Shown here: positions 5,372 through 64,000 of the stretch, one piece after another | Position numbering within the stretch: position 1 is the stretch's first letter | Layout of the letters: the number at the start of each line of letters is the position of its first letter | Source of the DNA: Solanum dulcamara | Lineage: Eukaryota; Streptophyta; Magnoliopsida; Solanales; Solanaceae | Length of the DNA stretch: 64,000 bases | NCBI RefSeq assembly: GCF_947179165.1 | Contig: NC_077247.1 | Location: forward strand, 41,026,935-41,090,934 | Reading direction: 5' to 3' | Program-made: the position numbers and the translations under genes | The notes under the pieces: model-generated | Databases searched by the model: none | Seen by the model: the letters and a program-made list of their open reading frames with translations, nothing else | What the model was told of the DNA's origin: nothing

Positions 5372-6371
5372 CTATTTTATAAAAAATCAGAGTAATGTTT
5401 GAAGAATCTGACTTGCCTTCTCATTGCAGGAAAGAAGAATATATATACATGAGTTTTAGTCTCCTACTCCTAAAATCTCTCCTAAAACAATATTCTGAGA
5501 ATATCATATTCCTATTATATATTCTACAATATCTAATAGAATACCACATCTCTCACAAACATAGATACACAGTATAAACTTACTATATTTACAAAGATCT
5601 TTACTTTAATACCTCCCCTCAAGTTGGCGCATGAAGATTTTAAATGCCCAACTTGCAAATAAGGTAATCAAACCGATGCTTTCCTAATGCTTTTGTAAAA
5701 ATATCAGCGATTTGCACTTTAGAGGAACATATGCTGGATGAATATTGCCTTTTATTATCTCTTCTCGAAGAAAATAACAATCTATTTCAATATGTTTCGT
5801 CCTTTCATGAAATACTGGATTCTTTGCTGTATGTAGTGCTGACTGACCATCACAATATAGTCTTATTGGAGTAGGATGTGTCACCCCAAGACTAAACAAA
5901 ATTCCCTTTAGCCACTTCAATTCACAAGTTGTGGTGGCCATAGATCTGTATTCAGCTTCTGCTGATGACCTGGACACTATTTGTTGCTTCATAGTCTTCC
6001 AAGATATTGATGAATTGCCTAAGAGAACAAACCACCCAGTGAGAGATCGTCGTGTTAACGGGCAACATACCCAATCTGAATCGCACCATCCATATAGCTT
6101 CAAATCACAAGTACTATGCAATAAAATACCTTGTCTAGGTTTTCCTTTCAAAAATCGAATGACTCGTAGCGCAGCTTCCCAGTGTTCTTCTTGTGGGCAA
6201 TGCATAAATTGAGATAGTACATCCACACCATAGGACAACTCTGGTCTAGTGAAGCACAAATATATGAGACGGCCTATCAATCGTCAATACCTCTCTGGAT
6301 CAGCAAGTGGACGTCCTTCGGCTAGTGCTAACTTGTGGTTTGACTCCATAGGAACATTTGTAGGTTTGGCT
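5372..6371 (-). mobile_element. Ty1-copia fragment: end of pol (RT/RNase H) plus part of LTR
   Basis: Read on the minus strand, 6371 to about 5640 encodes the end of a copia polyprotein: PMESNHKLALAEGRP, then YLCFTRPELSYG of reverse transcriptase, then the RNase H segment with KQQIVSRSSAEAEYRSMA, YCDGQSALH and the KHIEIDCYFLREE stretch. One in-frame stop (about 6281-6283) and a stop near 5684 show decay. A purine tract (TTGAGGGGAGG) at about 5610-5620 precedes AT-rich sequence that would be the LTR start. All of gag, protease, integrase and most of reverse transcriptase are absent. The fragment abuts polygalacturonase exon 1 at 6371/6372. Confidence 0.85.
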
Positions 6372-7428
6372 CAAGAGCAAGGCTATTACTATGCGCATTG
6401 ATGGGACTCTCTTAGCTCCATCTGATTATAATGTTATTGGCAATTCCGAAAATTGGACAAAGTTTGAAAAAGTCAACAGTGTCTATCTATGGTGGAACCT
6501 TTGATGGTCAAGGTTCTGGTCTTTGGGCTTGCAAGAATTGCCCTGAGGGGACTACGGTTCGTTAATTAAGTTTTTCATGGAAAATGTTTTTCAGTGTTTG
6601 TCATGATGAATAAAACATAGGAGTAGCAGTTAATTAGATGATCAATTAATAAAAAGTTAAGATAGTTATAAATAAATAAAAAAAAGACTTTCACAATAAG
6701 TGAGGAATTTTCCCCCATGTAGACAGAAACTAAAATTAGGATAAAATGAATTCCTCATGATTTTTTTTTGTTTTCCATAAAAATAATTTCCGTCGTACTT
6801 TTTTGACTCCACATTGCTTAGGGAGTTAAAAATGAACTCTCTCATAGGTTGACTAGCGTTTTGGATAGAATTAGGTCCAAAGTCAAAATCCAGATTCGTC
6901 CTAATCATCGCTTTTTAATTTTACCTAAAATATAATTTTGGTGCAGGCATTGACTTTTTACAACTCAAACAGTATTATAATGAGTGGAGTAACCGTACAA
7001 AATAGTCAAAAGTTTCAAATATTGGTAGAAGGATGTCATAACGTGAAGCTACAAGGAATGAAGGTATTCGCTCCAGGAAATAGTAAAAACACTGATGGAA
7101 TTCATGTAAAATGGTCATCAGGAGTTAGCATCATGAACTCACATATTGGTACTGGAGATGATTGTAGCTCTATTGGCCCTGGAAATTCTTACTTACGTAT
7201 TGAAGGCATTGCATGTGGCCCTGGCCATGGAATAAGGTTTGGAACATATTTATTGAAAACAAGATTATTATAATTTTTTTAATTTATCTTTTCAACTAAA
7301 ATGTATGTCCAAAACCTGACGTTGTAATTGCAGCATTGGAAGTTTAGGCTGGAAAGTACGAGAGTTGGGAGTCCAAAATGTGACAATTAAGAGTGTGACA
7401 ATTAGAAAAACCTACCAATTGCTTATAA
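6372..7428 (+). pseudogene. polygalacturonase pseudogene (copy B)
   Basis: Near-identical to parts of the intact gene at 10500-12022. Exon 1 starts only at the equivalent of base 10742, directly after the copia fragment, and carries a small deletion near 6480 that shifts the frame. Exon 2 (6947-7236, 290 nt) has the same length as in the intact gene and keeps NTDG, GTGDDC and GPGHG, although the residue after GDDC is Ser instead of Ile. Exon 3 begins normally after an AG at about 7333 but jumps within the equivalent of VTF directly to the last codons of exon 4 (KPTNCL, stop). That removes about 440 bases including intron 3 and the RxK motif. It cannot make a functional enzyme. Confidence 0.9.
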
Positions 7429-10499: not shown

Positions 10500-12022
10500 A
10501 TGAGTCCCTTAGCAATTTTTTCACTTTTCTTCCTCTTCATATTCAACTCATCATTAGCAGCAAATACCAATAATATGTACAATGTCCAAAATTATGGAGC
10601 AAAATCCAATGGAAAAACTGATTCATCAAAAGCCTTTTTGAGTGCATGGGCAGTAGCCTGTGCTTCTACTACCCCCTCCACTATTTATGTGCCACGTGGA
10701 AATTACTTGATTCACAATGCATACTTCAATGGACAAACATGCAAGAGCAAGGCTATTACTATGCGCATTGATGGGACTCTCTTAGCTCCCTCGGATTATA
10801 ATGTGATTGGCAATTTCGAAAATTGGATAAAGTTTGAAAAAGTCAACAGCGTTTCCATCTATGGTGGAACCTTTGATGGTCAAGGTTCTGGTCTTTGGAA
10901 TTGCAAGAATTCCAACAAGAATTGCCCTAAGGGGACTACGGTTCGTTAAGTTTTCCATGGAAAATGTTTTTCATTGTTTGACATTATGAATAAAAACTAT
11001 ATTCCGAAAACATATCCATAGTGCCAAAGAAAGAATTGAATATTATGTCAAACTAGCAAAATCACCTCTTTCTAATTTTACGTTAAATTTTTGTGCAGGC
11101 ATTGACTTTTCACAACTCAAACAATATTATAATGAGTGGAGTAACTGTACAAAATAGTCAAATGTTTCAAATTTTGGTAGACGAATGTCGTAACGTGAAA
11201 CTACAAGGAGTGAAGATATTTGCTCCAGGAAATAGTCCCAACACTGACGGAGTTCATGTAAAATTATCATCAGGAGTTAGTATTATGAACTCACATATTG
11301 GTACTGGAGATGACTGTATCTCTATCGGCCCTGGAAATTCTAACTTATGGATTGAAGGCATTGCTTGTGGCCCTGGCCATGGAATAAGGTTTGAAACTTA
11401 ACATAAAATTTATATTTATTAAAATGTATTTATTTATCTTTTTAACTAAAATGTATGTCCAAAACTTAACGTTGTCGCAGCATTGGAAGTTTAGGCTGGA
11501 AACAGCAAGAGTTAGGAGTCCAAAATGTGACAGTTAAGAGTGTGACTTTCACTGGAACAACAAATGGTGTGAGAGTGAAAACTTGGGCAAGGCCTAGCAA
11601 TGGCTTTGTTAGAGGTGTTCTCTATCAACATATTGTTATGGTTAATGTTAAAAACCCAATAATAATTGATCAAAATTATTGCCCTAATCATGAAAGTTGT
11701 CCTCATCAGGTATTGATTAAACAAATTGTAATTTATTTATAACACTAGATCATGTTCCCTTACCTTATTAATCTAATTATATTGTTGCTTTTTTTCTTTT
11801 TAGGGGTCAGGTATAAAAATAAGTGATGTGACATATGAAGACATACGTGGAACATCGGCTACAGAAGTTGCAGTGAAACTTGACTGTAGCAAAACTAATC
11901 CATGTAGCGGCATAACACTTGAAGATGTGAATCTTAGTTACAAAAATCAACCGACTCAAGCTTCATGTGTTAATGCTAGAGGAAGAGTTTCTGGTTTAGA
12001 AAAACCTACCAATTGCTTATAA
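10500..12022 (+). CDS. polygalacturonase, glycoside hydrolase family 28
   Basis: Secreted pectin-degrading enzyme that hydrolyses alpha-1,4-galacturonan in cell walls. Four exons joined by GT-AG introns (10500-10940, 11099-11388, 11481-11709, 11804-12022) give 392 residues, the usual length for plant exo-type members. Residues 1-21 form a signal peptide ([12 protein letters not shown] core). The GH28 signatures are all present: NTDG at 195-198, GDDC at 217-220 with catalytic Asp218/219, GHG at 240-242 and RVK at 275-277 (RIK in many relatives). There is no long propeptide before the catalytic domain. A pseudogene copy lies at 6372-7428. A TATA-like TATAAATA stands about 100 bases before the start. 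Exo-type activity and any pollen role are inferred from length and general resemblance, not shown. Confidence 0.93.
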
Positions 12023-18724: not shown

Positions 18725-19799
18725 TAAAATATTGAAAGATTGAAACATATATCAATGGTACAATGACAATATGTAGATATACCGTAATGGTATCATGCAT
18801 GATTGAATAATCTCATCGAATGACTGAAGCAAACCTCAATGAAAACACTGCTCAGTTACTCTTTGATACCACCAGAATATATTATTCTTTGATGGTAACA
18901 AGGAGGAAGAAGCAGTCTTTCAATGAAGTTGTTGTTCAGTTACTTCTTGATACCATCAGAGTATATTCATATACTGTAAGATATTGTAATGGTATCAAAG
19001 AGGAAAAAAAGAGTGGACGCTGATGTTAGCGTCCGCAAATTTAAAATAAAAAAGGGTATAAAAGTAATGAGGTATTTATAGGTAAATATTTTATTTTTTG
19101 GGTTATAAGTGTTCTTTTTACATTTAATTATACGAATTTTTAACTTTTCTCTCTTAAAATAAATATTTTCTCTATCTCAATTTATGTGATGTAGTTTAAC
19201 TTGATATAAATTTACGATTTTTTTTTTAAGAAAAATATTATTTTTAAAATTTATAGTTTAAAATAAGTCATAGATATTTATATGACTATAAATTATTTCA
19301 TTAATAAAATTTATCAATTATGTCATTAAAAATAAAATGATCATCTTTAAATTTAATAAAGTAAATATAAAAATATACTATTTATTTTTTAAAACCGACT
19401 AAAAAGATAAATGATCATATAAATTAGAGGACAGGAAGTAGCTATTTTACGAAACATAAATTTTAAATTATACTTCACACTTAAAATTTATAAATCACGG
19501 TAGACATAAATTTAATTTTTGAAAGGCAAAAAATAAAAATAAAGATAAAAATTAAGGATTAGCAAAACGATAAAATTAAACATTTAAACTAACATTTGTA
19601 TAAGCAAAATAAAAAACAACTAAACTAAGAATCCGTATGAATTGACTTATAAATTGCTATTTAGCTTTTTTGAGTGTTTAATTAATTAATTTAAAATTAT
19701 TTTATATTTAAAATAATTTTTTAAAAAATAATTAAATTTATTTGACTTAACTTATTTAAAAAAAGGTAAATAAAATCACCGGGTAAGTAAATGAACAGA
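18725..19799. other. intergenic with worn repeats
   Basis: 18760-18990 resembles the repeat at 15430-15545. 19640-19760 looks like a fragment of the TTGGATTGACTTATAAG MITE family seen at 29510 and 60135. No gene supported. Confidence 0.5.
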
Positions 19800-19903
19800 G
19801 TGCACGAAAAACATTGAGAAGGTGGAGACTATCATATCTCTTTCTGACCCTTTTATATTCCCTACTGCCTAACTTTCAACCCCCAAAACCAAAAGTAATC
19901 ATC

Positions 19904-20119
19904 ATGTTTTCTGAATCATCATCATCAACACCACCTAAACCTTACTTCTTTCACCGCCCTCATCATTGTTCCCACCACCAGTATTTCAAAACATCATCAT
20001 TATTGAAGAACAATAATAATACTCGTCAGAAAAAACGTGGTGCTGGACATGATGTTTATATTCACGATGATGATGATGACGAAGAAGAAGAAATTAGAAT
20101 GGAGAGTATTAATTGCTAA
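19904..20119 (+). CDS. small ORF, 71 residues, unknown
   Basis: Starts at the ATG of MFSESSSSTPPKPYF. It is rich in Ser, His and Asn, with an acidic tail of Asp and Glu before MESINC and the stop. No domain, signal peptide or family match is recognised. It may be a short ORF inside the mimic RNA and not a real protein; the simple composition (ATC/GAT/GAA repeats) argues for caution. Confidence 0.25.
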   Translation: MFSESSSSTPPKPYFFHRPHHCSHHQYFKTSSLLKNNNNTRQKKRGAGHDVYIHDDDDDEEEEIRMESINC

Positions 20120-20186
20120 TTGATTTGGATCTCTCTTGCAAGAGTTTGAATGAATCACTCTTTCTAAAGTCACTTTTTTCCTTTGT

Positions 20187-20210
20187 GGGGAATCAAGCTT
20201 CCTGGTCCGA
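20187..20210 (+). promoter_or_regulatory. miR166 endogenous target-mimic site
   Basis: The sequence is GGGGAATCAAG, then CTT, then CCTGGTCCGA. Canonical miR166 is TCGGACCAGG followed by CTTCATTCCCC. The last ten bases of the site pair perfectly with miRNA positions 1-10. CTT is a three-base bulge exactly between positions 10 and 11. The first eleven bases pair with positions 11-21 except one mismatch at position 14. This matches the accepted rule for target mimics: intact seed, central three-base bulge, at most a few other mismatches. Confidence 0.85.
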
Positions 20211-20330
20211 TCCCTTTGCTATTTCAAGCAAACTCATCACTTTTTTCTACTATTAGCTACTAGATCTCGCTTCTGGGATACTCAAACTAGAAGAAGAACG
20301 TTTTGCTAACTTCTATATATCTGCAGGTGG

Positions 20331-21258
20331 GTTTAATTTGTTGTATTTATTTGCTTTTTTTTTCAGAAGTTTTTAGGTGTGTGGTGTTGGTGAAGTTTTT
20401 AAATGGATCTGTTGTATCCTAATGGTATCCATCTCTTAATTAATTATATTCACAAATGTTTTTGTTATTCATAACATAGATCGATCTTCAATATATTATA
20501 TATCATGATGAGAAATGAAGTTATTATAATCAAATATCAATTTAGGGTTTTATTTAATTAGATGCTGATTAAAAAGATCTCACTAAAGTACCTTGTATAT
20601 ATCTATGTATTATTACTTTTGTTGTAACTTGTAACGTATGATTAGCTTTGCTTAGGCAAAACGTGTATTATTATTGTATGAAAAGATCAACAAAGTACGC
20701 ATCCTTTGAATTCTTAGATTTTTAGACTTGTCTAAGTATAGTCATATGTATTAGGGAACATGTTTGGGGTTTAGATCCATGATTAAGAAGAAGAAATATA
20801 ATCACTGGGGTCGTCTTGGTACATGATTAGTAATTATTGATGTAGCAAATTACCGAACAAATCGAAATAGTACTAACCATTCATCTTTGGAAGTAATTAA
20901 ATGATATTCGTGAGCTGTTGTCATATAGTAGGCGTGATAGGATAAGCAAAGGTCATTTTATGAATTGGAAACCTCAAGGATTATTTTATCCCATCTATAT
21001 TCTTCATTCAATTGATAAGATAAAATAATTTTGAAATTAGCTAATACTTCAAATTAAATATGAATAAATTTCATCTTGAAGTTTCTTTTATCTCACTTAT
21101 CAAACGATTCCTCAGTAATAATTCTTGGACTTATTGAGATAATGGTAAGAGTCATTGGAATTAGTTCCAATGGCCAGGCAACAGATTTGAACTTTCAGGT
21201 GGTGATTTTGGCTTTACGTGTGGTTGGTTGGGTTTTTTGCCATTATGTTCATCATTAT
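20331..21258. other. intergenic, no gene seen
   Basis: May hold an intron or 3' part of the mimic RNA. 20935-21115 resembles one end of the GGATAAG-type MITE also seen at 31766-32154. No coding sequence. Confidence 0.4.
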
Positions 21259-21301
21259 ATACCCCACGATGTGGGATTTGAATTTCACTGGGTTGTTGTT
21301 G
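21259..21301 (+). mobile_element. 43-bp SINE stub with 16-bp target duplication
   Basis: Only the last 43 bases of the SINE family seen at 17530 remain (GTGGGATTTGAATTTCACTG, then GTTGTT). They are flanked by TTATGTTCATCATTAT at 21243-21258 and 21302-21317. Confidence 0.85.
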
Positions 21302-21317
21302 TTATGTTCATCATTAT

Positions 21318-22174
21318 GTAGTACGCGTGGATCTATTTATGTTGCTGGGATTGCTTTGAGCCTTGAGGATCATAATGTAAATACGTATATGAATATGGGA
21401 TGCATGTTTGAGTTAATATAGAATTGTAGATGAAGGACTAGGGGTATAAGCTAGTACGACAAATACCTACTCGTACGTACGTCTTGTTTTCATCCATTCA
21501 TATTTGTTAGAACCTGCAATCATCTCATTTAATTTAAAAGTCTAAGATGTTATACGAAATACACTTCTAAAATTACTTATTATGTATGTTTTAAGTATTT
21601 CTCCACATACAGATTTGATTTTTTTCATGGGTAAAGTATGTAGAAATTCTTTTGGTAATAGATGGTGTGAGAGTCGAACACATGAACTTTGCTTGCTAAT
21701 TTGGTATTATATTGAATCTATGATTATCTCATCTTAGAAGCTTGAGTTATTAAAGAAATTAATCCTAGTTTTAAGTTACTTAGTGAGATAACTATCCAGT
21801 TTGGCAGTTCAGAGCAAAAAAAATTTACTCCATCAATATTAGCCCAACTCATTATATGTTACGATATTAGACCTAAATCTTTTTTCTATTATAAAGTGGC
21901 TAAGCTTCTTGAGTTCTTTCGTTCGAATCCTCATCAATAAAGTGAGTTTAGATAGTCAATTAATTGACCTACTAATTTAAAGCTTCCTTCTCTCTACTTC
22001 GTGTTTCTCCAAGTTTGCTTCTCCTGTCAAATTTATATGTACAAAGAGGGGCATATTTTACATCTTAATAATTAATAGTGTACAAAAGTAAAAATGGAGA
22101 AGGAATCTAAAAGGGCAAAAATACAATTAATAAATTTTATCCTCCTACATATATAAATTAGCTTACAAAAAAAA
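21318..22174. other. intergenic, no gene seen
   Basis: AT-rich DNA without supported genes or defined elements. Confidence 0.4.
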
Positions 22175-27298: not shown

Positions 27299-30200
27299 TT
27301 AAGCATAACTTTGATATTCTTCATTTTCCATGTAAAAGGCCAAAGGCAAATTACTCAAACAGCTTAGAATATCTTGCCTATATTCTTGCCACCACTTCAT
27401 GAAGCTACAATGAGGCTGGAAAATCTCAGAGGATGCTGAATAGCTCCTTATCAAACTCATTGTATATTCCCCAAAATTAGCCAAATACGCTCTCGAATTT
27501 TCCTTCTCTTCTGGACTGCCTTCTCTCAGTCTTGTGGAACTTATAATAGCTTCCTCCACATATGCCCAAAAGCAAGAATCCTCGGTGAGGCTAACAGACT
27601 TCCTTCTATTGTTACCACTTCCAGACGGTTTGTCTTCTATCATCCATTTCTCTAACTGTTTATAGTGCTCAGATCTTCCGAGATTTACATAGTCTCTGTT
27701 CCCTGATTTCATATAGTATTCAGCTATGTCGAGTGGTTCGACCATCCTTCTATAGTTTGTCCCTGCATAAAGCCAACGAGTACGAAAAGCTGCCTCCTCT
27801 TTTTGTGGCATTTTCTCTACTTCTGCAACCATTATTTTCCAGTATTTAGTGAGGGTTCTTTGGTGCTTGACAATTTCTTGTCTGCTTTTGACTGCATCCC
27901 TGCTTCGTGACCCGCTGCATTTGAAACTATCATAGTAGCCTCCTTCATTCAGGGTTACTTTCTTGTAGCACTCTAGCCAAGCCATAGCTTCTTTCATTTT
28001 GTTTAGCTTCTTGCCAGGATCGAAGGCATTCCTCTTCTTTGAGAAAGATTCTTCCACTCTTTCCTTCACTTTGTTCCTAAGAGAGCTCATGTTACTTCTG
28101 TGCTGCCACGACCAATATATGCATATACAAGTTAGAAGAAAAGAAAAAAAAGGTTTAGAAACAAATTCTAAAAGTTTTACGAACATTATCTCTATTGATT
28201 TCCTTTTCATTCAACTTTAGCTCAAGATAAAGGGAAACTATACTTGCTTGCACTTTAGGGGTAAGTTTATTTTACCTGTCCAATTCTGATTGCTTCTAGT
28301 TGTAGATTGATGCCTGCTTGGAGTTGATTCACTATAAAGTCACACAGCTGAGAAGTTCCCTTACAGATTACTCTATGCTTGAGGTGTTCCAAAACCTGCT
28401 CATAGTCGAAATGCAAGAAACCATTGTCCTGGTGTGGGCTATTTGAGTTCATTTCCGTCATAAGATCCAAAACTGATTCAGGTTCCTCAAAACAAGAGCA
28501 GTCTGAATCTGAGCACAGCAGAAACATACCGAATGGCTTGAAAATACAAGATTGAGGAGTAGAACCAGTAAAGCCATTAGTAGGTGAAATTAAAAATCTT
28601 GGGATTGGATCTTGGTTTGAGACTACGTGCAAGAAGCTTGAATTCCATGATGGACGTTCTGATATGGCTTGTTGCAGGCCACTGTCACCAAGAAGGGGTG
28701 AACCAAACGTGATGCAAGTGGGACGCTTATTATTGTCCTTTGGAGAAATGTTAAGTAGCCAGAGAGTGAATAGAGATGCCACAGAACCTCCCAAAGAAAG
28801 TCCAGTGATTATTAGAGGACTGAAACTGTCCAACTGCACTCAAGCAGAATGAACAAAATATCAACATGAATAATATGAATAACAACGCTACTGCATCCCT
28901 AACTAACACCATAAAATCAATGCTTCAGACATAAGTAAGTTTTGGTCTCATAAAAGAGTTTCAAGTTCTCTATAAAAAAAAGGGCAGCTCGGTACACTAA
29001 AGCTCTCGTTATGCGCAGGGTCCGGAAAAGGGCCCGACCACAAGGGTCTATTGTACGCAACTTTACCTTGCATTTCTGCCAGATGTTGTTTCCAAGGTTG
29101 TTTCAAGTTCTCTATCTTGTCTAAATTTCCAGCATTACCATGTTAACATGATTCAAGGTATTCGAGTTTTTATTTTTCTGTTAGTTTACAGATATCATAT
29201 AACTGCACAATTACGACAAAGTTTATAGGCGAACTAATACTAATAAAAAGACACATTTCTTATATGGCAACTGAAAAGAAGCTTAGGATTTGTAAATTAA
29301 AAAGGAGATTTCTTCTTTAGCACCAGAATCTAACCAATCTAAAGACTCTAGTTATTTATCTTATGCAAATTTATAGAGCCACTTAAATGTAACACTCAGT
29401 TTAACATAGTGCATTGAAACCACATAATTCTTCATTTTAAACTTCCATCTCTCTTTATTTCTTGGAGATACTATGGTCAACAGTCAATAATTCACATGGC
29501 AAGACTAAGAGCCGTTTGGATTGGCTTATAAGTTGCTTATCAGTTGTTTTCAACTTTTTTTAGTGTTTGGCTGGCCAACTTAAAGTCATTTTGTGCTTAA
29601 AATAAGCCTCAATAAATAGTTGAGTTTATTTGGATGAACTTATTTTAAACAGTTTATAAGTTGAAAACAGCTTATAAGTCAACAAAAAAGAGTTGGTCTG
29701 CACCTACTTTTTTTTAAAACTTATAAGCAGTTTTCAACTTATAAGCTGCTTAAAAATAAGTCAATCCAAACAGGCTATAAATAACTAAATGCTCACTGTG
29801 ATTCAATTTCTTTGTCTTACTTTCTTTGTAGTTCGTTAAAAAAAAAAAAAGTTTTTTTCTTTTTGATAGTTTTACATGTGACATGCTTAAGACTATTAAA
29901 TAACATTTTGAGTACATTGTATGTGTCTTTAGTTTAAGACAATAAAAATTCTTTCTACTTTCCTAAACTCCATATCAAGTTAAAACGAAACAAACAAATT
30001 GAAACTGGGGTAGTAACATCTAGCACAAGTAGGGAAAGCTCAAGAGAAATCACAAGGAATATTATAATACCTGTTCTTTGAGGGCAGAGAGCTCATTCAG
30101 TAATGAGGCAAACAGGATTATTGCTGCTTTGTCAACTGAGAAATGAGGGTTGACTTTGGTAGAAATGAAGTCAAAAGGAGATTGGGAACCTTTAAGAGCT

Positions 30201-42803: not shown

Positions 42804-45800
42804 ATGGGTGTTCAAGGTCTCTGGGATCTCATCGCCCCCGTTGGTCGCCGCGTCTCCGTCGAGACCCTCGCTGGGAAAAAGCTGGCAATCGGTAACTTCA
42901 GCTTCCTTTAACCCTAACCCTAATTAATACTAGTCACTGATCATACTGTGTGAAAATTGTTATTTATCAGATGCGAGTATATGGATTATACAATTCATGA
43001 AAGCAATGCGAGATGAAAAGGGAGAAATGGTGCGGAATGCTCACATTTTAGGATTTTTCCGTCGAATTTGCAAGCTACTCTACCTTCGGACTAAGCCAGT
43101 GTTTGTATTTGACGGAGGCACGCCCGCCCTGAAGCGCAGAACAGTGATCGCACGTCGCCGCCAGCGGGAAAATGCTCAGGCCAAAATTAGGAAGACGGCT
43201 GAAAAATTGCTCCTTAATCATGTGAGTCCCTCAATTATTTGGAGTTATGTGTTGAAGACCTAGAACATATGAGTGTACCATTTTTAGAACAACTTAAGTT
43301 TTTTGATAAGAAGGGTCACACATTTCAATATGCTATAGGTGTTTTAGTCACTAACAAAGTATTTTCACGGCTTAGGAGCATGTTACAAACCTAAACAACC
43401 TTTCTCCTTATCTGTAGGATGAGATGGTCCATCAAAGTGAACAATATGTTTGTTTTTCTATTCTTGGTCACATAAGTGCTTGTGATCAATGCCGTGGTGG
43501 ATTATCATGCGGGCAGATGAGAGAACCGATAATAAAACCATTATTTCCTTGATTCTCTGTTTTGTTGACAATGGAAATTGGTCGTGTGTTATCTAACTTA
43601 AAATGCACTCAATTCATCAGGAACCTCATTCTGTTAAGTATTTTACAGTTTGCATGATGTTGAATAACTTTTCTTTATCCATTTCTAATTGCAGCTTAAA
43701 GCAATGAGGCTCAAAGTGTTGTCTGTGGATCTGGAGAACCAGAGGAAACTGAATGATGCAAAGGGTAAAAAGGTTATCACAGAAGCAACTGGAACTATGG
43801 AGAACATGGCCGAAGGAAATGGCTTGGTTACAGAAAATTATGACAAAGAAGCACTGGATGAGATGTAAGTTATAGTAGTCAGTTGTGTGATCGTTTTTTA
43901 TTTTTTGACAAGTTACATAATTGTATGACCTTGTCGCTTTCTACTTGAATGTGGAAATAAAAGATTCTGACACTCAGTTTGACAAGTTAATTAAGGTTGG
44001 CAGCTTCTATTCAAGCAGAGGAAGACTGGAATTTTGCTGATGATGCATCAACATTTTGTGCTGCAGCTCCTACTGAAAATGATAACACCGATGAAGACGA
44101 AGAGATGATACTGGTTAGCATCAACTGCTTGTTGATTTCATTTTCATCTTTACATGTCAGATTCAGATTGTGCATGGTGCTAGTGACCACTTTATTTGAG
44201 TAGGAAAATGATTTCGACGCTTTTGGTCTCAATACACCTATAGTTGTGTGTGTTATAAAGCTAACAGGTCCGTTGATGCCTCTGGTGCTGGAAATCTAAA
44301 TAATTTTTGGGTTAGGATTATGCATTCATTTTCTACTATTTCAATCCACGGACTTGATTGCATACATGTAATTGTGATGCTTGTGTTATTATTTGACGAG
44401 GTTATGAATAGATTTTTTCTCTTACTAACCCCCAAACTCTGTATGCAATGTGCAGCCAGCAACACAAGGAAAAGTTGATCCTTCTGTTTTAGCTGCTTTA
44501 CCTCCATCTATGCAACTTGATCTCCTTGGTCAGGTAATGGTTGTTCTTTTACTTGCGGAAGCAGTATCCAGTTAGTACTCCCTCAAAAGGGAGACAAACG
44601 AACTGTGTGCGCTGAATTTTCTCTCTTTGTGTTATCAATTAATAAATTGTTTGCCAGATGAGGGAGAGATTGATGGCTGAGAACAGACAAAAGTATCAGA
44701 AGGTCAAGAAGGTACATCATTAAGTTTTCTTGCACATCAGTGCATAATGATTACACTTTCTGCAATTGTTTCTCTGGTTTTTCGGGCTTGTATCTTCTTG
44801 TGATATGTACCTTTTGTAGTTTAAAGTACAAAATTTATAGTTTGCGCACAGCATTTCATGTTTGAGAACACAATATCTCAATATTATATACTAGTCCTTG
44901 TTTGTGAGTTACATTAGATGGATCATGATGATGTCTCCTAAACGATCTATTTATAAAAAGTTTTTCGTCAGGTTGATGGTTTAGTTAGTACTTCTCTCAC
45001 ATGTTACGTAATTTGTGATGATAGACTTCTGACATTCTTTAGTCCTTTTCCAGGACTACTGGGCTTACAATTTTTTCTGTTATATTGTTCAATTATGTCA
45101 GTTGTGGTTGCAAGGTTAAGAACTGATGCTGTGTGCCTTTTGATACATTCTTTATCTTTTTCATTCTAATTCTCTAGATGCATCTCTCAGGCCCCGGAAA
45201 AGTTCTCAGAACTGCAAATACAAGCTTATCTGAAAACTGTTGCTTTTCGACGCGAGATAGGTGAAGTGCAGAAAGCTGCTGCTGGAAGGGGAATAGGTGG
45301 TGTGCGTACTTCAAGGATTGCTTCTGAAGCAAATAGGGAATTTATTTTCTCCTCATCTTTTACTGGGGACAAAGAGTTAGTAACAATCATTTGGTTTACT
45401 CAAGTGATTCATTCATTTTCCTTTCCTTGCTTAAATCATCATTGTCCACTAAAAAAATTGCATGTTGGTGTTTATCAGTGTCCTTGCATCTGCTGGAGAA
45501 GATCAAATTAGTAAGAAGTCAAGTGAAGTACAAACAGAAAATAATTTGGCAAATGTTGCGAGTGATGCTTCTACAAGGAAATCTAGTAATGTGCTTGAAT
45601 CGATTGTGACTGAGCCTGAAAGGGCATTTAACGATGATGTGGAAACATATCTGGATGAGAGGGGTAATCTTCGGGTCAGCAGACTGAGAGCCATGGGTGT
45701 TCGTATGACTCGAGATTTACAGAGAAATTTAGATATGATGAAAGAGATCGAGGAGGAGAGTATGTCCAGAAACAAAGATTTTAGCGATGTGCCTACTATA

Positions 45801-48800
45801 AGTGACACTGATGTACATACCCCTGGAAATGTCTCTGATACAATTTCGCATCTGAACTCATCCAATCCAGATGATGATGGGAAGGCTTGTTTAAACAACA
45901 AACATGAAGAGTCTGAGTTGAGAAGTGGGACTACAATTCAGATATCTTTTGAAGATAATTTTGAACATGATTGTGCCAATGATGATGATGATATATTTGC
46001 GTGTTTAGTGGCAGGTGATCCAGCGATGGAATTTCCAATGGATCTTTCCCCCTCCAAGAAACAGTCTCTAGATTCTGCTTCGGACGTTGAGTGGGAGGAG
46101 GGAGTGGTTGAAGAGAAGGGTGACTTGCTAAGTAATAACTCTCAAGGGGAAGGTCAGGCTCCACTGGAGAAAGATGGCCTGGATGATGAGGCTGAAATAG
46201 AATGGGAAGAAGGATGTTTAGACATTTGCGAGGAGCCTCCCTTACTTCCACTGGATTCAAGAAGTGCTTATAAAGGTGCTTTGGAAGAAGAAGTCAATTA
46301 TCAGGAAGCAGTAAGGAGGAGTCTTGAGGATATGAGAGATCATAGATACATAGATAAATCTCATGAGAAAGAGATGTCCGAAGAAGCTATTCAAATAGTT
46401 TCTCAGGGTATAAGTATTGAATCTGTTAGTCAAGAGAACAACTGTCTAAAGGTACACGAAATTCTTCAACAGAAAGATTTACCATCTGAAATTCAGACTG
46501 CTGACTTGCATGATACTGTACTTGAGATGGATATTCCAGGGAGTAATAACTGTTTGGGGACCCATTTGAGAGAACAATTTCAAGCTAATTCTGGTTACGG
46601 AAATATGCAGATTGAAAAAGAAATCAGTCAGGCTGACAGTAATTTGCAGACTGAAAAAGCAACCACTCATACTAACAGAAATTTGCATTGTGACATACAT
46701 ATGGAACCGACCATTCCACTTGATGGATCAGAGGTTGACATGATTAAAAAGAAGATAACAGATACCACTGTTGAGGTTTCGAGTAACAGCAACACAAAAA
46801 GTGTTTCAGATGTTACTTCTATTGAACAATCAACTTTTAATGAATCACCAAATGCAATAACCACTGATGCCCAACAATATGAATCTGGCGCAGCCACACA
46901 TCATTATACACATGAGTCGACAGAACTCACCAAAGCTTTCACCAAGGATTTTACAACTGATATCAATAGTGCACAAAACCTAGACGTGGAAAGTGCTTGT
47001 GATGGCCCATTATTTGAGAGATTGGGCAATTTGGATTCTGCAAGTGGAAAAGAAGATCGAAAAGTTATGATGGCTAGTTTGGAGGAGGAGATGCATGTAT
47101 TGGATAAAGAGCGTGAAAAACTAGGAGATGAGCAGAGAAAGCTTGAGCGTAATGCAGAGGCTGTTAGCTCTGAAATGTTTGCTGAGTGTCAGGTAGGTTT
47201 TAGATGATTTTTTTTTTCAATGCAATTATAAACCTACTTTATTTCCCAATAACACATTTTCTTAGTTGGAAGTTGTTTTATCACTAGGGAGTAGGAATTT
47301 TTGGTTGAGGTGTTCCTTGGCCATTTTATTTAGTTTCTCTCAATTTTGCCGGAATGTGCTAGGTGGGTGTGATTACAAATTGATCCTTAGTGATATCAGT
47401 TCAGTTTTGTTATTGTCATGCCATAAAGTTAGGGATGACAATGAGGTAGGGTGGTGCGGGTTCGGGGCGGGTTTAGAGCTATGCGGTGCGGGTTGAAGTA
47501 ATTATTTTTAAAATTAATCCGTGCAGGGTGGGTTGCGGGTTTAAGGTACCAAATAATAACCTAAAGAAAATTAAATCTTTGTAATTACTAAAAATCAAAG
47601 ATATAAACTTTTTATATTAAACTTTGACTTTAGTTTTAACTTTTTTTAAAAAAAATTAAACTAGATGTGTCGAGTGAATTGTTAGTTGTTGAAATGTTAA
47701 TTAGAAACAATTAAGAAATAATTGTTGAAATGTTAACTAGAAACAATTAATTAGTAGTTGATGTTGATTAGTGGAAAAATGGAAAAAAATATGAATTTTA
47801 TTTTTCATATTAAACTCAATTAAAAAATAAAAAAAAGGGCAGCCCGGTGCACTAAAGCTCCCGCTATGCGCAGGGTCCGGGGAAGGGTCCGACCACAAGG
47901 GTCTATTGTACGCAGCCTTACCTTGCATTTCTGCCAGAGGCTGTTTCCAAGGCTTGAACCCGTGACCTTCTGGTCACATGACAACAACTTTACCGGTTAC
48001 TCTAAGACTCCCCTTCAATTAAAAAAAAAAACTTAAAAATTTATGCTGGGTGAGGCGGGTTGAAAATGAAATAAATTGTCATGCGGGGCGGGGCAATTTA
48101 AAAAATTTGCAGGTTGAGCTCAACCGCCCCGCCCCGCCCCATTGTCATCCCTACATACAGTCTGTTCTATCTCAATGATTTTTTTGCACCAACTCTTTGG
48201 GTGTAATGTTTCTAGGATATAAGATCATGCCTTTTGGATGTAATGCTTCTAGGCTAAGATTATGCTTTGTATTGGAGTATCTCTTATTTAAATCACGTAA
48301 TTAATTGGTGTATCCTGGTTAGTTTATCAACTTGACATCCGAACGTGCACGTAATTAATTGGTGTATCCTGGTTAGTTTATCAACTTGACATCCGAACGT
48401 GCGTGATTGTTTTTTGCTTAGTGACTTAGGCTTTTATAGCAGATTATAGAAATATCTTTGAACAAATATTTATATAGATATATCTTTCCTTATCAAAAAA
48501 GTACCTTTTCTTTTTCCTGCTCCAGCTTGCTGGTCCGGAGTCATCTTCTTTGTTGTTGTCCTCGATTCCTTTTCCCTAATGTTTTTTGGTGAAATGGTAT
48601 TATTATTAGTTCAATTCGTCTGATTTACCTCTTTCTCTATGTTAGGAGTTGCTCCAAATGTTTGGCTTGCCATATATCATAGCTCCAATGGAAGCGGAAG
48701 CCCAATGTGCTTACATGGAACTTACAAATCTTGTTGATGGTGTGGTTACTGACGACTCTGATGCATTCCTGTTTGGTGCTCGAAGTGTATACAAGAATAT

Positions 48801-51800
48801 TTTTGATGATCGCAAATATGTGGAGACATACTTTATGAAGGTTCATCATCGATTCACCAGTGTTTTGGATACTCTTCTTTCCCTTAAGTTTGTCTCTCTG
48901 CAACTAGGTTTCTACAGCTACAGTTGTTTAGGTCATTTTCTTAACGATCCCCCCCCCCCCCCTTCCACTGCAATGCTTGTAGTAAGAGGAATTGTTTTTC
49001 TTTTTGTGATCACTATCACAACCACTTCCCACCCCACCCCGCCCAAAAGAAAAAGAATAAAAAATGAGTGTAAGAAAAGAAAAAGGGTTTTGAGGTTGGT
49101 GGTACTCTAGGCCAAAAAAAAAAACGAATAAAAAATGAGATTAAGAAAAGAAAAAGGTTTTGAGGTTGGTGGTACACTATGGGACCAATGTTTCATTTCT
49201 TAGAGAAGATTGTAGTTTCCTTTCATTTATAATACTTGTGGTTGATCACAAATCTGCTGTTCATTAGGATGTGGAGAATGAGCTTGGGTTGGATAGAGAA
49301 AAAATAATTCGTATGGCATTGCTCCTTGGGAGCGATTATACTGAAGGAGTGAGGTAAGCCTGTTTCTATGGCTCTTTTACAAAGTGTTATATCCTGCTAA
49401 CCAGGTATCTCTGCCTCTCTTGTTGACTCCGACAATTAGTCTTGTTTGCATATTCTCATCAGGAGCAATATATAGTATAGTTCTTTTACATGAAGCATTT
49501 AATTATGTCTGAGATATTTGGAAGTCCTCATCCATTCTTTCTTCATGGTGCAGTGGGATCGGTATTGTTAATGCCATTGAAGTTGTGAATGCATTTCCTG
49601 AGGAAGACGGTCTTCAGAAATTTCGTGAGTGGGTGGAATCGCCAGATCCATCCATTCTCGGGGTGCTTGAAGCACAGGCAGGTTCCAGCTCTAGGAAGAG
49701 AGGGTGTAAAGTTGGTGATCCTGATATGAATTGCTCAACCAGCAATTTGGAAGGCAATACCGCGGCCAATGAAAATGTCCCCGAGTCCGAGGACAGAGCT
49801 GAAAAGTTGAGGCAAATTTTCATGAATAAACATGTAAACCAATTGTGCCTTTTTGGTTCAAATCTATTTGTCTATTTGATTGGAAAAGCATGACCTCACT
49901 CTTTCTTTATGCTGGGATCGTGTTCACAGAGAAATATTAGTAAAAACTGGCATATTCCTTCCTCGTTTCCGAGTAATGCTGTAATTTCAGCATATACGTC
50001 TCCGCGAGTTGACAAGTCAACAGAGCCTTTCGCATGGGGGAAGCCTGATGTTTCTGTTCTTCGCAAGTGAGTTATACACTATATTTTCCTTCGAAAGGTC
50101 TAATGAAGATTTAGGATTTATATATGACTCTTAATGAACATTTACTTGTTGCAGAGTTTGTTGGGAGAAATTCGGCTGGAGCAGCCAGAAGGCAGATGAA
50201 TTGCTATTACCGGTCCTGCAAGAGCACAACAAACATGAGGTTGATCCTTTTTCATATTCTTCTACCTCTGTCTTATTCAAACAGTCTTTCTTGCTATCGA
50301 AATCTAAAATAAATAAATATATGGAAATAAATTGTGTCCACCGAAATAAAACAAATGGATAGAGTAACCATGTCAATTGGCGTGATCCATTCGAAATAAA
50401 GGATTGGTTTATATGATAAGAAAAATATCAATATATCACTTTTGTATTGTTTCTGAATGATCTGCACTTACTATTTACTTCATTTTGTGGTAATTTGTCT
50501 GATTGGAGAAAGAGGAAGCTGATGAAGACCTTTTCTCTCACTGTTCCTTTGTGTATTGATGTAGACACAACTTCGACTGGAAGCCTTCTACTCTTTCAAT
50601 GAGAGATTTGCAAAAATCCGTAGCAAGAGGATAAATAAGGCTGTTAAATATATGACTGGGAACAAATCCAGTCATTTAATGGATAGAAGTGTACAAGATG
50701 CTCCTGGAAGCTTTAAAAAAAGAGTAGTAAAATCTAATGATATGAACGAGGAAAAGATAGAGGATCCTCCGAGGGGACTAGAGTCTGCTGGTGCTGATTA
50801 TGAGGAGACTACAACAAAAAGAAGATCAGTTGGAAAGCAGTCAAGAAAAAGGAAAGGAGGGCATCTGCAGCCTGAACATTTGGAACCACCAGAGGGAGCA
50901 GGAAGCAAGCGAAACACCAGTAAGAAATCAAGTGGTAGTATAGGACGACGGATAGAAACAGCTCGATCGGTGCGGAAGGCAAGTAAAAAATCCTGTTCCA
51001 GATCCTCCAAAACAAGCTCCGAGGGGGAAAAAGATAGTGATATAGAGCAACAATTACAAATCGAGAATCTTGAAAAGCCAAATCAAGCCAGAAGAGTACG
51101 TCCTTTTCCTGCAATATTAATTGTAGTTTAACTCTTAATGACCACACCTTTTTGAGCGAAATTTACAGACATTAACAATAGCTTTTGAGAGCTCATCTAG
51201 ATACTATATTTTGTGATAGTATAGGGAAGGTACTCACTGCATTGGTGCTAATGTCAAGTCACCTTTGCCTTGTTTAGTGTTCCCCTAACCTCTACTGAAT
51301 TCCTATCCATAAAGAATTAGAGTTGAATTATTCCATTCTCTCAGGTCTAATACTTTCAAAGCCACTTCTGGAAGTCCTATGTTTATGTTTATGATATTTT
51401 GTTTCTGCAAGTCCTATATGTATGGTGTTCATAATATCTTGTTACATGTGATGTATGAAATATTACTCATGGTTCGTATTACATGTGAAAATTGTTGATG
51501 ACATGGTTTGGTCGCATGTTGTCTTAAATTCTTGATTCGTTTGTGATCACTAGAATTTGCAATTTCAACATTCTCTCTGGAGTTGATTGCTAGTATATGC
51601 ATGTATTTTGAACAAAATCACATACTTTTAAACAAAATGACAGTAATTTTTTCTGCATATTCACTGTTCAGGGGAAGGGAACTTTCTCTCTATTATCAAT
51701 TTCTGTTTTATTTACTTGAAACTTCTCCAGTTCATGACTAATATTTTTTCCATTTCGTTCTAATTGAAATTTCAGTCAGAGCGTCATCGGAAAATAGTAA

Positions 51801-52462
51801 ATTACTGTGAGAAGAGAGATGATGAGTCTGACAAAGCTGACAAAGATGATGGAGATTCTACTACTGAAAAGTTAGAAAGGAGAGAATCAGGAGCAGATGT
51901 GGGCATAGCTGAACGTTATCCTGCTGATTCTAGTAAGATGAATGAGAATGATGCAAGTAATGATTACTTCCCACAAGAACTATCAAACCTTGAAACAAGT
52001 GCTGGTGTTGATACAGGTGGGGCAGAGATGGAAGCTACTGTTCAGCCAAGTTTTGATGAAACATATGATCCTATTCCTGGGGATCTTTTGTCTAAGGAGT
52101 ACCTTAAAATGGGGGGTGGGTTTTGCTTAGAGGAAAATGATGGAGATATGGAGCATGAGATAAATGCTTCTAGCCCTATCTTATCAGTTGAGTGTTCAGA
52201 TATTTATAATTCTTCTCAGCTTTTGGGAGATGAGAATTGTAGTAATGCTTCAAACCAATTGGTTTCTCGCCCCTCAAGGAAAACAAGTGAGAAGCATTGT
52301 GAAGCATGGATAGGTGCATCTGAAATTGAGCAAGATTTAAGTAACACAACTAATATTAAGGTATCACCACACCTAGAAAATATGGAGAACAATGATTATG
52401 TGTCCAGTTCGGTATTTCTTCGTGCAATGCCAAATTTGAGGAAGCGGAAGAAGAATAGCTGA
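42804..52462 (+). CDS. UVH3: UVH3/XPG, structure-specific endonuclease of nucleotide excision repair
   Basis: Makes the 3' incision at UV and bulky lesions, working with TFIIH in the nucleus. Fifteen exons: 42804-42891, 42971-43221, 43695-43864, 43996-44113, 44456-44533, 44658-44711, 45191-45375, 45479-47192, 48646-48840, 49268-49353, 49554-49833, 49930-50066, 50155-50239, 50565-51095, 51776-52462. All junctions are GT-AG and in frame, giving 1552 residues. The N domain starts MGVQGLWDL with Asp30 and Asp77. A long acidic spacer carries two EWEEG motifs (519-523, 556-560) and a ubiquitin-interacting motif near 584-600. The I domain has E902, E904, D923, D925 and D974 in [16 protein letters not shown] box, QLRLEAFY (1149-1156), and a basic LRKRKK tail follow. 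FEN1 and EXO1 are excluded by the spacer. Confidence 0.95.
47430..48153. mobile_element. hAT-type MITE in UVH3 intron 8
   Basis: Ends TAGGGATGACAAT and the inverted ATTGTCATCCCTA, with GGGGCGGGGCGG subterminal repeats. Flanked by CATAAAGT (47422-47429) and CATACAGT (48154-48161), an 8-bp target duplication with one change. It carries a TS SINE inside. Confidence 0.88.
47828..48014 (-). mobile_element. TS SINE nested in the intronic hAT MITE
   Basis: Complete antisense copy from GGGCAGCCCGGTGCACTAAA to the promoter end, with a B box (rc of GGCTTGAACCC) and an A-box region. It is flanked by TCAATTAAAAAA on both sides (47816-47827 and 48015-48026). Confidence 0.92.
48294..48401 (+). repeat. perfect 54-bp tandem duplication in UVH3 intron 8
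   Basis: Two identical units starting CACGTAATTAATTGGTGTAT and ending CATCCGAACGTG, directly adjacent. No divergence is visible, so the event is recent or the copies are being homogenised. Confidence 0.92.
48950..48962 (+). repeat. poly-C run in UVH3 intron 9
   Basis: An unbroken run of about 13 C just after the exon that encodes the I domain. It is a likely length-variable site and a possible sequencing weak point; it lies within an intron, so it does not affect the protein. Confidence 0.8.
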
Positions 52463-53121
52463 CGATACCAGTGCTCGGTGTAGGTAATCCTTTGTATATG
52501 AAGTAGGTTAGCATGTAATTCCTTCTCATATTTCGCATTAAATGCCTGCATCACGTGGGACTTCCCACCTTGTATGATTTTTGTATAAGCAGATTAATTA
52601 TTGAATCCATCTGTCTTGCAACAGATAAGGTTCCAAGTTGCATAGCTGGTGCTTACTGCTTAGTGATGAACTAACATGTATTCATGAGTGTTACAAAGTT
52701 GTTCATGTACATGACTTTTTGGTCTTGCTAATACTTATTGCCAGAAGTTCAAAGAGAAGAAGTATCTTTCTGTATTTCTGGCAAGAACTATCATCCTTAT
52801 ACTTCTTCTCCCGATTTCCTAGATTCGTGATGGGTTATTAATAGTTTTGGGAGATAACAAGTTCTATGTTACAGAAACCTCAAACAACTGGAAATAGGGC
52901 TCTTACAAAGGTGGGCTGATGGGACGTCTGGTGACTTTCACCGGTTAGTTTATTTCCTTTTGAGTCCATATTTGATGGTTATCATCAGAGGTGATGTCCG
53001 AGGTAAGTTTACTTAAATATTTTAGTTGGAGGTTCCACATGGTTTTTCTTTGTAATGATGGCAGGAAGTAGTGTCATTCTTTACTCGCATATTTGTGTGT
53101 ATCAGTGATTAATGCTGCTGT
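52463..53121. other. UVH3 3' flank, no further gene
   Basis: Holds the 3' UTR of UVH3; the exact poly(A) site is not evident. No coding sequence recognised. Confidence 0.45.
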
Positions 53122-53232
53122 CTCTATAGATGGCCAATCCTACATAAGCATCTTTCGTATTCTTGATCTATCTAGTACCCACATGTGTACACAAGAAAAG
53201 TAGCCACTATGTAGGATTGGCCATCTATAGAG
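53122..53232. repeat. perfect 25-bp inverted repeat with 61-base loop
   Basis: Arms 53122-53146 (CTCTATAGATGGCCAATCC...) and 53208-53232 are exact reverse complements. The loop contains a secondary short palindrome around ACATGTGTAC. Nothing known matches it; it could fold into a long hairpin if transcribed. Confidence 0.9.
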
Positions 53233-54229
53233 AAAAGGGAAACAGAATATCATAACTTCTTCCCATTGCTGTGGGAGGAAGAATTAAACAATTGAGGACT
53301 TTGTTTTTTCTCGCAATGTTTTAGTATATTTGTCAAATGCATTGGTTATAGTTGAAAAAATCGTGATGAGGACCTGTTCCAAGTTGTCGCCCTACATGAA
53401 AAAAGCTACAACAGAAAATAACAAATGCATATGTTGGGACATGAATCAAGCAAACTCTATTTCTAAATTGTGTTTGGGGGTGGTGTTGGTCACAGTTGGT
53501 GGGACGGTTGCTCCCCACTACCAATTGTCTCTGGATAAATTGAACTTAATAGCTAATAGTGTCTGTATCAAAGCAATGAATACAAGATGTGCATGTTATA
53601 CACACATTTATCACTTACCAATTACCATAATTAGGTGACGTGTATTTCCACACTAATTAGTGAAGTTACATTAATTGATTTGTTACAAAATTATACTTGG
53701 TGCAAGTACCGAGTATTTTCCTGTGGTCTCTGTGAATGTATTGATGATTGTGGATAATCCTTACAAGTGGCAAAAGGTTGTGGCTGAATTAGAATATTTT
53801 ATCACACTTTGAATGGCCCAAAAAAGAGCTCTTCAAACATTAAAGATTAGATAGTCGCAAACCAAATTATGGAAGCCATGAAACAATATTTTCGATGCAC
53901 GCAATAGTCTAACTTAGAACTTCATAAAATTATATATATGACGGGCTAAGTATGGTAAGATCTAAAAATATGGATTCATTTTGGTTATAAGCTTGAGCCA
54001 AGTGATGTTGAGAGTAACATTCTCAAATATAAATATACTATTAATTAATGATGATTAACATTAAAAGTTTATGCGCAAACGTATATCACTCATCTTTTTA
54101 ATTCACTATAAGATGGATAATTTTACTTTGTTTAAATAAGGTGATTCACATGTGTCAATATATACCATCTTTCTTCATTTTAAAAGTCGGCAAAATAAAA
54201 TTTATTTCATTCATCACCGTCTATTTTGT
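53233..54229. other. intergenic, no gene seen
   Basis: A 100-codon open frame at 53330-53638 has no family features and is not called. The remainder is AT-rich. Confidence 0.4.
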
Positions 54230-61423: not shown

Positions 61424-64000
61424 ATGGACGACTATATATTGACATGTTTTCATCATGGGGGTCATGTTATCGCAGACCCTAACCCTATTTACAGAGGATA
61501 AATAGATGTATTTGCCATTGTCATTGATAAATATCATTTTAGCCTTGTCGAGTTTCTTTTATACATTGAAGACCTTGGGTACACAAATGTGAAGGGTTTT
61601 TACAGTCAAAATGAAATTAACAATGAATATGTTCAAGTTACTTCTGATATTCAGTTGTTAGACTATGTGAAAAACTTAATAGCTGGTGATGAATTTCATG
61701 TTTATGTGGTCCATGAAATTGATGAGTTAGAGAAATTGTCAACTCCAGCTGGTCTTTTAGCATGGCCAGACTCTGTTGATATTGGAAATGTGGAGAATGA
61801 GGCTGTTTCAGATGTGAATGAGACTGAGGATATTTCAGATGTGAATGAGTCAGATTTGCATAGTAGTGACCAGATATAAATGTCATTCCTGATGAAGATG
61901 GTTCAGATGTTGATGAAGAATTGAGATCTTTTAGATCTGAAATGAGGAATAAAAGAAATCTTAATCCTAAGAGAAAAAAGAAAGTACCTGAAGAAATACC
62001 AGTAGGTGAAGCTGGTATTGATAGAGGCTTTGAAGATATTGAAAGAAATAAGAAGGATAGATATGTTGGTAGATTAGGAGGAGATGAAGAGTATATTGAT
62101 AACTCAGACTGTGATAGTGATAATAGCACAGATGTGGTAGATGTAGAAGTTGTTAGGGGTGTTGATCAATCAGGAAGAAGGAAGAGTAAAAATGTCAGGT
62201 ATGATGTTGAATGTGAAGTTACTATTTTTGAACTTGAAATGATTTTTAAAAATGCTAAACAATTTAGAAAGGCTTTGATAAATTATGCAGTAGGAAATAA
62301 TTATCAGATTAAGTTAAGGCTTAATGAAATTCATAGAGTGAGGGCTAAATGTAAATTCAAAGAAAAATGCAAATGGTTGTGTTATGGTGCAATTGATAGA
62401 GATTATGATAACTTTTTGATCAAGAACTACCATCCTATACATAAGTGTTCTCCATCAAATAAGAACAAAATGTGTACAAGTAAATTCCTAACAAACAAAT
62501 TCAAGGATGAAATAACTAAACAATCATCCATAAAGATTTGGGAAATACAAGAATTGTGCAGGGAGAAGTTAGAATTGTATGTGGGTAGGACCATCTGTTA
62601 CAAGGCAAAGCTAATGATTCTTAGAGAATCCATGGGTGACTGGAATATGAAATTTGCAAGATTATGTGATTATGCTGAGGTTATAAAATAGACCAATCTT
62701 GATAGTTTTATTTTTTTAATAATGGATAGAGAAACTGCACCAGAAAAGAATTTGTTTGTATACTTCTATGTGTGCTTGGATGCATTGAAAAGGGGGTGGA
62801 AGGAAGGATGTAGAAGAATAATAGGATTTGATGGATGTTTCTTAAAGGGTGCTTGCAAGGGTGAACTTCTAGTAACAGTTGGCAAGAATGGAAACAATTA
62901 GATGTTTCCTATAGCCTAGGCAGTTGTAGATAAGGAAACTACGCATAGTTGGAGTTTCTTTATCAATTACTTGAAAGAGGACATGTAGTTGGGTACTGGA
63001 CAAGGTCTTACTGTGATGGCAGATATGCAAAAGGTAATTACCTATTACATTTGCTAAAGCTATTAGATTATCTATTAAGTATTGAATTGCATTTTATTTT
63101 CTTTGCAGGGTTTTCATGCAACTGTTGATGAACTGCTACCAAATGCTGAAGTTAGAAGGTGTGCTAGACATATTTGGTCTAATTGGAATCAAACCTGAAA
63201 GGGAGAGAAAAGGAGAAAACAATTTTGGAGATGTTCAAAGGCAAGTTTCGAAGTGAAGTTCAAGGATGAGCTTCATAAAATGAGCAAACTTGGTAATGAT
63301 ATTTGTGCTGACTTATTGCATTATCCAAAAGTGTCATGGGTTAGGGAATTCTTTCAAGAGCATTTCAAATGTGATGTAGTTGAAAATAACATGTGTGAGA
63401 CCTTTAACTCATGGATCATATCATGTAGACACAAATCTATAATAATCATGCTGGAGAAAATTAAGAGAAAGATAATGACAAGAACTATGAAAATGATTAA
63501 GTTTGCCAACACCTGAATATCTGATATTGCACCTATGGTGCTAGACTTATCTTAGAGGAGAATAAGGACAAGTCTAGGACATGCAAGGTGCTTTGGAATG
63601 CTGATGTTGGGTTTGAGATTGGAGAAAGAGAGTACAAGTATACAGTTAACTTGGCTGATAGAGTTTGTAGTTGTAGAACTTGACAACTGAGAGGCATTTC
63701 ATGCCAACATGCTATTTCTGCTTTGTGCCACATAGAACAGGAGCCTGACCCTCTTGTGGAGCATTGGTATAAGAAGGATACCTTCTTAAAGGCTTATAGT
63801 CATTTCATCCAACCAATTTCAAATATGAAGATGTGGCCTGAAACTAACAATCCAAGGATTTAACCTCTTGAACCTAACCAATGCTTGACAGACCTGCAAG
63901 AAATAGAAGAAAGGACAAAGATGAACCAAGAAAGAAGTATGGAAAAATGTCCAAACAAAGGGTGAAACAGACTTGCTCCATATGTAAACAATAAGGTCAT
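61424..64000 (+). pseudogene. MuDR-type (Mutator-like) transposase, decayed, runs off the window
   Basis: Begins MDDYILTCFHHGGHV, the N-terminal MuDR domain, with LVEFLLYIEDLGY and an acidic linker. Then comes the DNA-binding region (FKNAKQFRKALINYAVGNNY), and the MULE catalytic domain with IGFDGCFLKG and TVMADMQK supplying the first two acids. A 75-nt GT-AG intron (63034-63108) precedes GFHATVDELLPNAE and CARHIWSNW. A SWIM zinc finger (CSCRT stop QLRGISCQH, near 63670) and the start of a zinc knuckle (CSIC) follow. Broken by stops at 61499, 62689 and several in 62900-63850, and by frameshifts near 61870, 63535 and 63885. Not functional. Confidence 0.9.

Follow-up and report, generated by a model that had tools for sequence, protein, structure and literature searches.

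A candidate endogenous target mimic of miR166 beside a small open reading frame in Solanum dulcamara

A 64,000-nucleotide stretch of the Solanum dulcamara genome (the window) was analysed, and at positions 20187-20210 a site was found that pairs with miR166 around a three-base bulge at the slicing position. Judged from its letters and pairing, this site is a candidate endogenous target mimic (eTM) of miR166 that probably works as such. In the genome, of 942,432,443 bases in 32 contigs, the window begins 41.03 Mb into contig C11, which is 63.3 Mb long.

We infer transcription of the site, its binding by Argonaute, the absence of cleavage and an effect on HD-ZIP III. Argonaute loaded with miR166 would encounter the site in a polyadenylated transcript that crosses about 19.9-20.3 kb from left to right, and the three-base bulge opposite miR166 positions 10/11 would block slicing. 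Because of this block, the uncut RNA would hold miR166 and would thereby spare the HD-ZIP III mRNAs.

Pairing of the site with miR166

On the plus strand, positions 20187-20210 have the letters GGGGAATCAAGCTTCCTGGTCCGA. The miR166 sequence used as the query, TCGGACCAGGCTTCATTCCCC, was afterwards matched in the same genome. The site is made up of the following features:

20187..20210, plus strand: miR166 target-mimic site with a central bulge, from sequence and pairing
20198..20200, plus strand: the bulge, three bases (CTT), opposite miR166 positions 10/11
20199-20201, plus strand: equivalent alternative bulge (TTC), opposite miR166 positions 9/10
20194..20194, plus strand: the single mismatch, C for G, opposite miR166 position 14

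Positions 1-10 of miR166 pair faultlessly with the site and positions 11-21 pair with it except at position 14, so that the original prediction, which had also placed a CTT bulge at 10/11, was right to the base. One refinement concerns the drawing of the bulge. A break at position 9 or at position 10 costs one mismatch and a break at position 11 costs two, and the bulge can be drawn at 9/10 at the same cost as at 10/11 because a C flanks the two T on each side. The predicted energy of the duplex between the site and miR166 was -31.2 kcal/mol, compared with -44.1 kcal/mol for a perfect miR166 site and -37.4 kcal/mol for an HD-ZIP III-type site.

The eTM rules used for tomato decoys (PMC6355781) confine the bulge to positions 9-12 and its length to 2-4 bases, and ask for perfect pairing at positions 2-8 and for ≤4 mismatches outside the bulge. 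The site pairs perfectly over positions 2-8, within a perfect run of 1-10; its bulge of three bases lies within positions 9-12 in either drawing (CTT at 10/11 or TTC at 9/10), and the mismatch at position 14 is the only one outside it. The duplex energy is also under the cut-off of -25 given in that source, but was computed by a different program.

A copied fragment of an HD-ZIP III target was considered as the origin of the site and rejected. All four C of the miR166 3' end are paired by the site, whereas this CCCC pairing is missing from the HD-ZIP III-type site with which it was compared, so that simple copying of a target does not explain it.

A further criterion for an eTM is that its cognate miRNA be encoded by the same genome, which was found here. 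The antisense 19-mer of miR166 had 11 exact matches in the S. dulcamara genome and three with two mismatches, and the exact 21-nt miR166 was present in seven of the eight loci examined. In the remaining locus (L002, G000:C4:6889507-6892525), position 20 differs from miR166. When pieces of the eight loci were folded, six gave a clear hairpin holding the mature strand, and no clear hairpin was observed in the piece folded for L001 or L006. As a separate observation, L002 forms a MIR166-like hairpin with a mature strand ending in CCTC rather than CCCC, a miR166 variant.

The surrounding exon and the small open reading frame

The site lies in a region, 19885-20330, whose GC content of 0.363 exceeds that of its upstream (0.207) and downstream (0.284) flanks and which also holds an open reading frame (ORF):

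19885..20326, plus strand: candidate first exon (inferred), a GC-richer island with the ORF and the site, ending at a donor
19904..20119, plus strand: 71-aa ORF (MFSESSSSTPPKPYFFHRPHH...ESINC), with one homologue in the protein collection

When donors were scored with splice weights, CAG/GTGGGT came out highest in 19850-21600; the intron would begin at base 20327. For the start of the exon, a TATA-like stretch near 19850 allowed only a guess. The GC-richer island and the donor would fit a first exon carrying the mimic, which would then lie about 116 bases before the exon end. The island is not unique, because GC is equally high again at 21100-21500. A MIR166-like hairpin at the site was also considered, and was rejected on an Rfam scan, in which no family reached its threshold anywhere in the window, and on the ordinary fold of 19904-20330, which was no better than that of shuffled sequences (z -0.20; 40 of 100 as good).

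In the original prediction, the locus had only a small ORF and was taken for a dedicated regulatory RNA. The miR166 mimic stands by sequence, and "only a small ORF" understates the locus because the 71-aa ORF has a homologue, P0001. This protein has 87 residues, comes from Logan (longest contig 1,882 bases) and is identical to the ORF in 37 of 54 aligned columns (E 1.1e-14). The transcript is therefore perhaps an mRNA that encodes a small protein and has the mimic in its 3' UTR, and the ORF may be coding, as its comparison with P0001 suggests.

On this basis, the locus could be mainly a 71-aa small-protein mRNA, with the miR166 site in the 3' UTR as a second function or a by-product, and the binding of miR166 may then act mainly on the translation or stability of the mRNA itself. 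The start and the N-terminal block are shared with P0001, with gaps in whole codons, and the site begins 67 bases beyond the end of the ORF. The same ORF has 101 aa if begun at an upstream TTG. Several results weaken this reading. P0001 was the single candidate (1/1) when the protein collection was searched with the ORF, and a two-sequence profile search (90 candidates) returned P0001 again and nothing new. The whole-codon gaps are a weak sign of coding because they are expected of anything detected as an ORF. No Pfam family exceeded its cut-off for the ORF (best 16.3 bits against 27). The C-terminal part differs between the two proteins, and the alignment of the longer P0001 tail to the window DNA downstream was not significant, since 255 of 1,000 shuffles were as good. 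ORFs of this length are also common: 24 of at least 60 aa, gene exons among them, overlap 10000-32000. We consider it rather unlikely that the locus is mainly a small-protein mRNA.

A combination of both functions, a bifunctional Solanaceae gene in which one mRNA provides a conserved small protein rich in His, Asp and Glu and a miR166 decoy in its 3' UTR, is a somewhat more doubtful proposal. If true, it would couple translation of the protein to the release of HD-ZIP III. The reading preferred here, that the site works as an eTM of miR166, is weighed below against two origins without selected mimicry.

Chance resemblance and descent from a MIR166 gene

That a site of this form might have arisen by chance, in DNA under no constraint, and might have no function is suggested by the false positives that eTM predictions can generally be presumed to include. 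With independent bases of the window's composition, the expected number of sites of exactly this form is 6.4e-8 for one window and 9.5e-4 for the 942 Mb genome. In addition, 1,787 windows of 64 kb were simulated, each base being drawn from the two preceding ones, and both strands were searched with 22 miRNAs. Twenty sites with ≤3 mismatches were found over the 22 miRNAs; none had ≤1 mismatch for any of the 22, and none with ≤3 mismatches was for miR166. Under the same criteria, 20187-20210 was the sole site in the real window for the 22 miRNAs tested. The assertion that a chance match of this quality is very unlikely is thus borne out, and the site has its bulge, seed and 3' pairing where a mimic requires them. 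Chance resemblance is accordingly an improbable account of the site.

When the bulge bases and position 14 were left free, the resulting pattern, GGGGAATNAAGNNNCCTGGTCCGA, matched the window once at ≤3 mismatches, while 100 shuffles gave no match. No exact match to it was found in GTDB genome contigs or in viral contigs. A protein search with one plus-strand frame running through the site found no relatives. Under much looser rules (bulge 1-6, ≤3+2 mismatches), one further place in the window was obtained, 49764-49790, which fails the eTM rules.

In a repeat check inside the window, 19701-20700 matched itself plus one 27-base stretch. At 18857-19034, some 0.9 kb before the ORF, inspection by eye showed a pair of similar stretches around 'ttac..ttgataccaccagaatatatt', together with a short inverted repeat (ggacgct...agcgtcc). 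These may be a small transposon remnant, and for this reason the surroundings of the site are perhaps not repeat-free.

Descent of the site from an inverted MIR166 gene fragment, in place of selected mimicry, is highly improbable: TTGT, the four bases upstream of the site, extends the match to the antisense of one MIR166 locus (L003), but four extra matches at one of eight loci are weak evidence (about 5% by chance, a hand estimate), the other flank has no match, and both the ordinary fold of 19904-20330 and the Rfam result for the window speak against it.

Genomic position and relation to known miR166 decoys

The site is flanked by polygalacturonase sequences on the left and a SAG101-like gene on the right:

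about 6370-7270: second, partial polygalacturonase copy
10500 to about 12022: polygalacturonase gene, left of the site, with GH28 in pieces 10500-10949 and 11093-11401
pieces at 27299-28839, minus strand: SAG101-like gene, right of the site, with EDS1_EP and Lipase_3 domains in two pieces

For the first piece of the SAG101-like gene, the four best solved relatives were SAG101 chains. The partial polygalacturonase copy lacks its first part, and its protein pieces are about 75-85% identical. Within 5687-7270 it adjoins a minus-strand ORF that resembles a Ty1/copia RNase H region. Farther to the right, exon-like ORFs on the plus strand at 42934-53635 resemble what we take to be a large XPG/Rad2-type nuclease gene, and ORFs at 61502-63793 resemble what we assume to be a Mutator-type transposase. 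Tomato gene ids from the TAPG cluster of polygalacturonases to Solyc02g067660 run in steps of ten.

In PMC6121401, tomato TAPG1-3 are Solyc02g067630/640/650, on the plus strand of chromosome 2, and TAPG2 spans 1,523 bases; the span 10500-12022 here is the same, 1,523 bases. The tomato SAG101 genes are given as Solyc02g069400 and Solyc02g067660 (PMC10834447; both also in PMC11855271). Polygalacturonases and SAG101 are thus in the same order as in tomato, and the locus therefore points to tomato chromosome 2. Going by gene order, the site most likely lies between a tomato-type TAPG cluster and the counterpart of Solyc02g067660. The exact tomato counterpart is uncertain because the second SAG101, Solyc02g069400, is also near a polygalacturonase, Solyc02g069480, which is a few ids away, on the minus strand and listed with no cluster in the available part of PMC6121401. 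The polygalacturonases of the window are clustered, unlike this singly listed gene. Chromosome 2 is indicated whichever SAG101 is the counterpart. A further 10 kb to the left of the window gave no polygalacturonase match, so the layout of the cluster is not exactly that of tomato. In the literature searched, no mention was found of the six tomato gene ids possible between Solyc02g067650 and 067660.

The original prediction mentioned a miR166 target mimic from tomato, and such an RNA does exist. It is slylnc0195, predicted with psMimic as an eTM of miR166 (PMC4683531). TYLCV is reported to induce slylnc0195, with lower miR166. Knock-down of slylnc0195 by VIGS reduced HD-ZIP III transcripts and increased the virus, and its transient expression in N. 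benthamiana raised the transcripts of miR166 targets (PMC4683531). A later re-analysis of a susceptible tomato line reports no predicted miR166 eTM (PMC5987537).

The densities of tomato lncRNAs are given as 1.37 per Mb on chromosome 1 and 2.51 on chromosome 2 (PMC4683531). On the assumption that lncRNAs were numbered along the chromosomes, number 0195 would fall on chromosome 2, with unplaced scaffolds ignored. The locus and slylnc0195 are thus alike in the miRNA, in the mechanism and in chromosome 2, which is indicated for the former by its neighbours and for the latter by the assumed numbering. They are unlike in that the tomato study kept only transcripts scored as non-coding, whereas the locus has a 71-aa ORF with a homologue. 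Because of its position, identity with slylnc0195 is plausible, and the locus may well be slylnc0195 or its orthologue.

Decoys of miR166 are already a known kind, with examples in Arabidopsis, rice, citrus and tomato, and the mechanism is not new. The Arabidopsis ath-eTM166-1 and the rice osa-eTM166-2 (Wu et al. 2013) are described as functional on overexpression in PMC8005961. According to PMC4683531, ath-eTM166-1 has a mid-site bulge, and leaf shape was altered and miR166 targets were increased. Both are, like the locus, miR166 mimics; they are from other species and were compared by description only. In sweet orange, the lncRNA csi-eTM166 is reported as a mimic of csi-miR166c (PMC8215657, PMC8861278), which likens it to the locus as a mimic of a miR166, by description and not by sequence. 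For cucumber, a lincRNA is listed whose pairing with miR166 lacks a central bulge (PMC4370693), and the available part of a cotton eTM study leaves miR166 unmentioned (PMC9368808). A literature search with pieces of the site found no mention of its letters. The mimics of miR399, IPS1 and At4, have a three-base bulge at the slicing position in a transcript with only short ORFs. The bulge of the locus is of the same type, whereas the miRNA and the transcript differ.

If the site is real and conserved, it would provide a miR166 decoy known to the base, whose position is defined and open to deletion, and this decoy would be a test of the part played by natural mimics in HD-ZIP III dosage and leaf polarity. 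If the locus is slylnc0195, it would also bear on begomovirus resistance. The linked small ORF is the more interesting point of the locus; it raises the question of whether the published 'non-coding' decoys include small-protein mRNAs.
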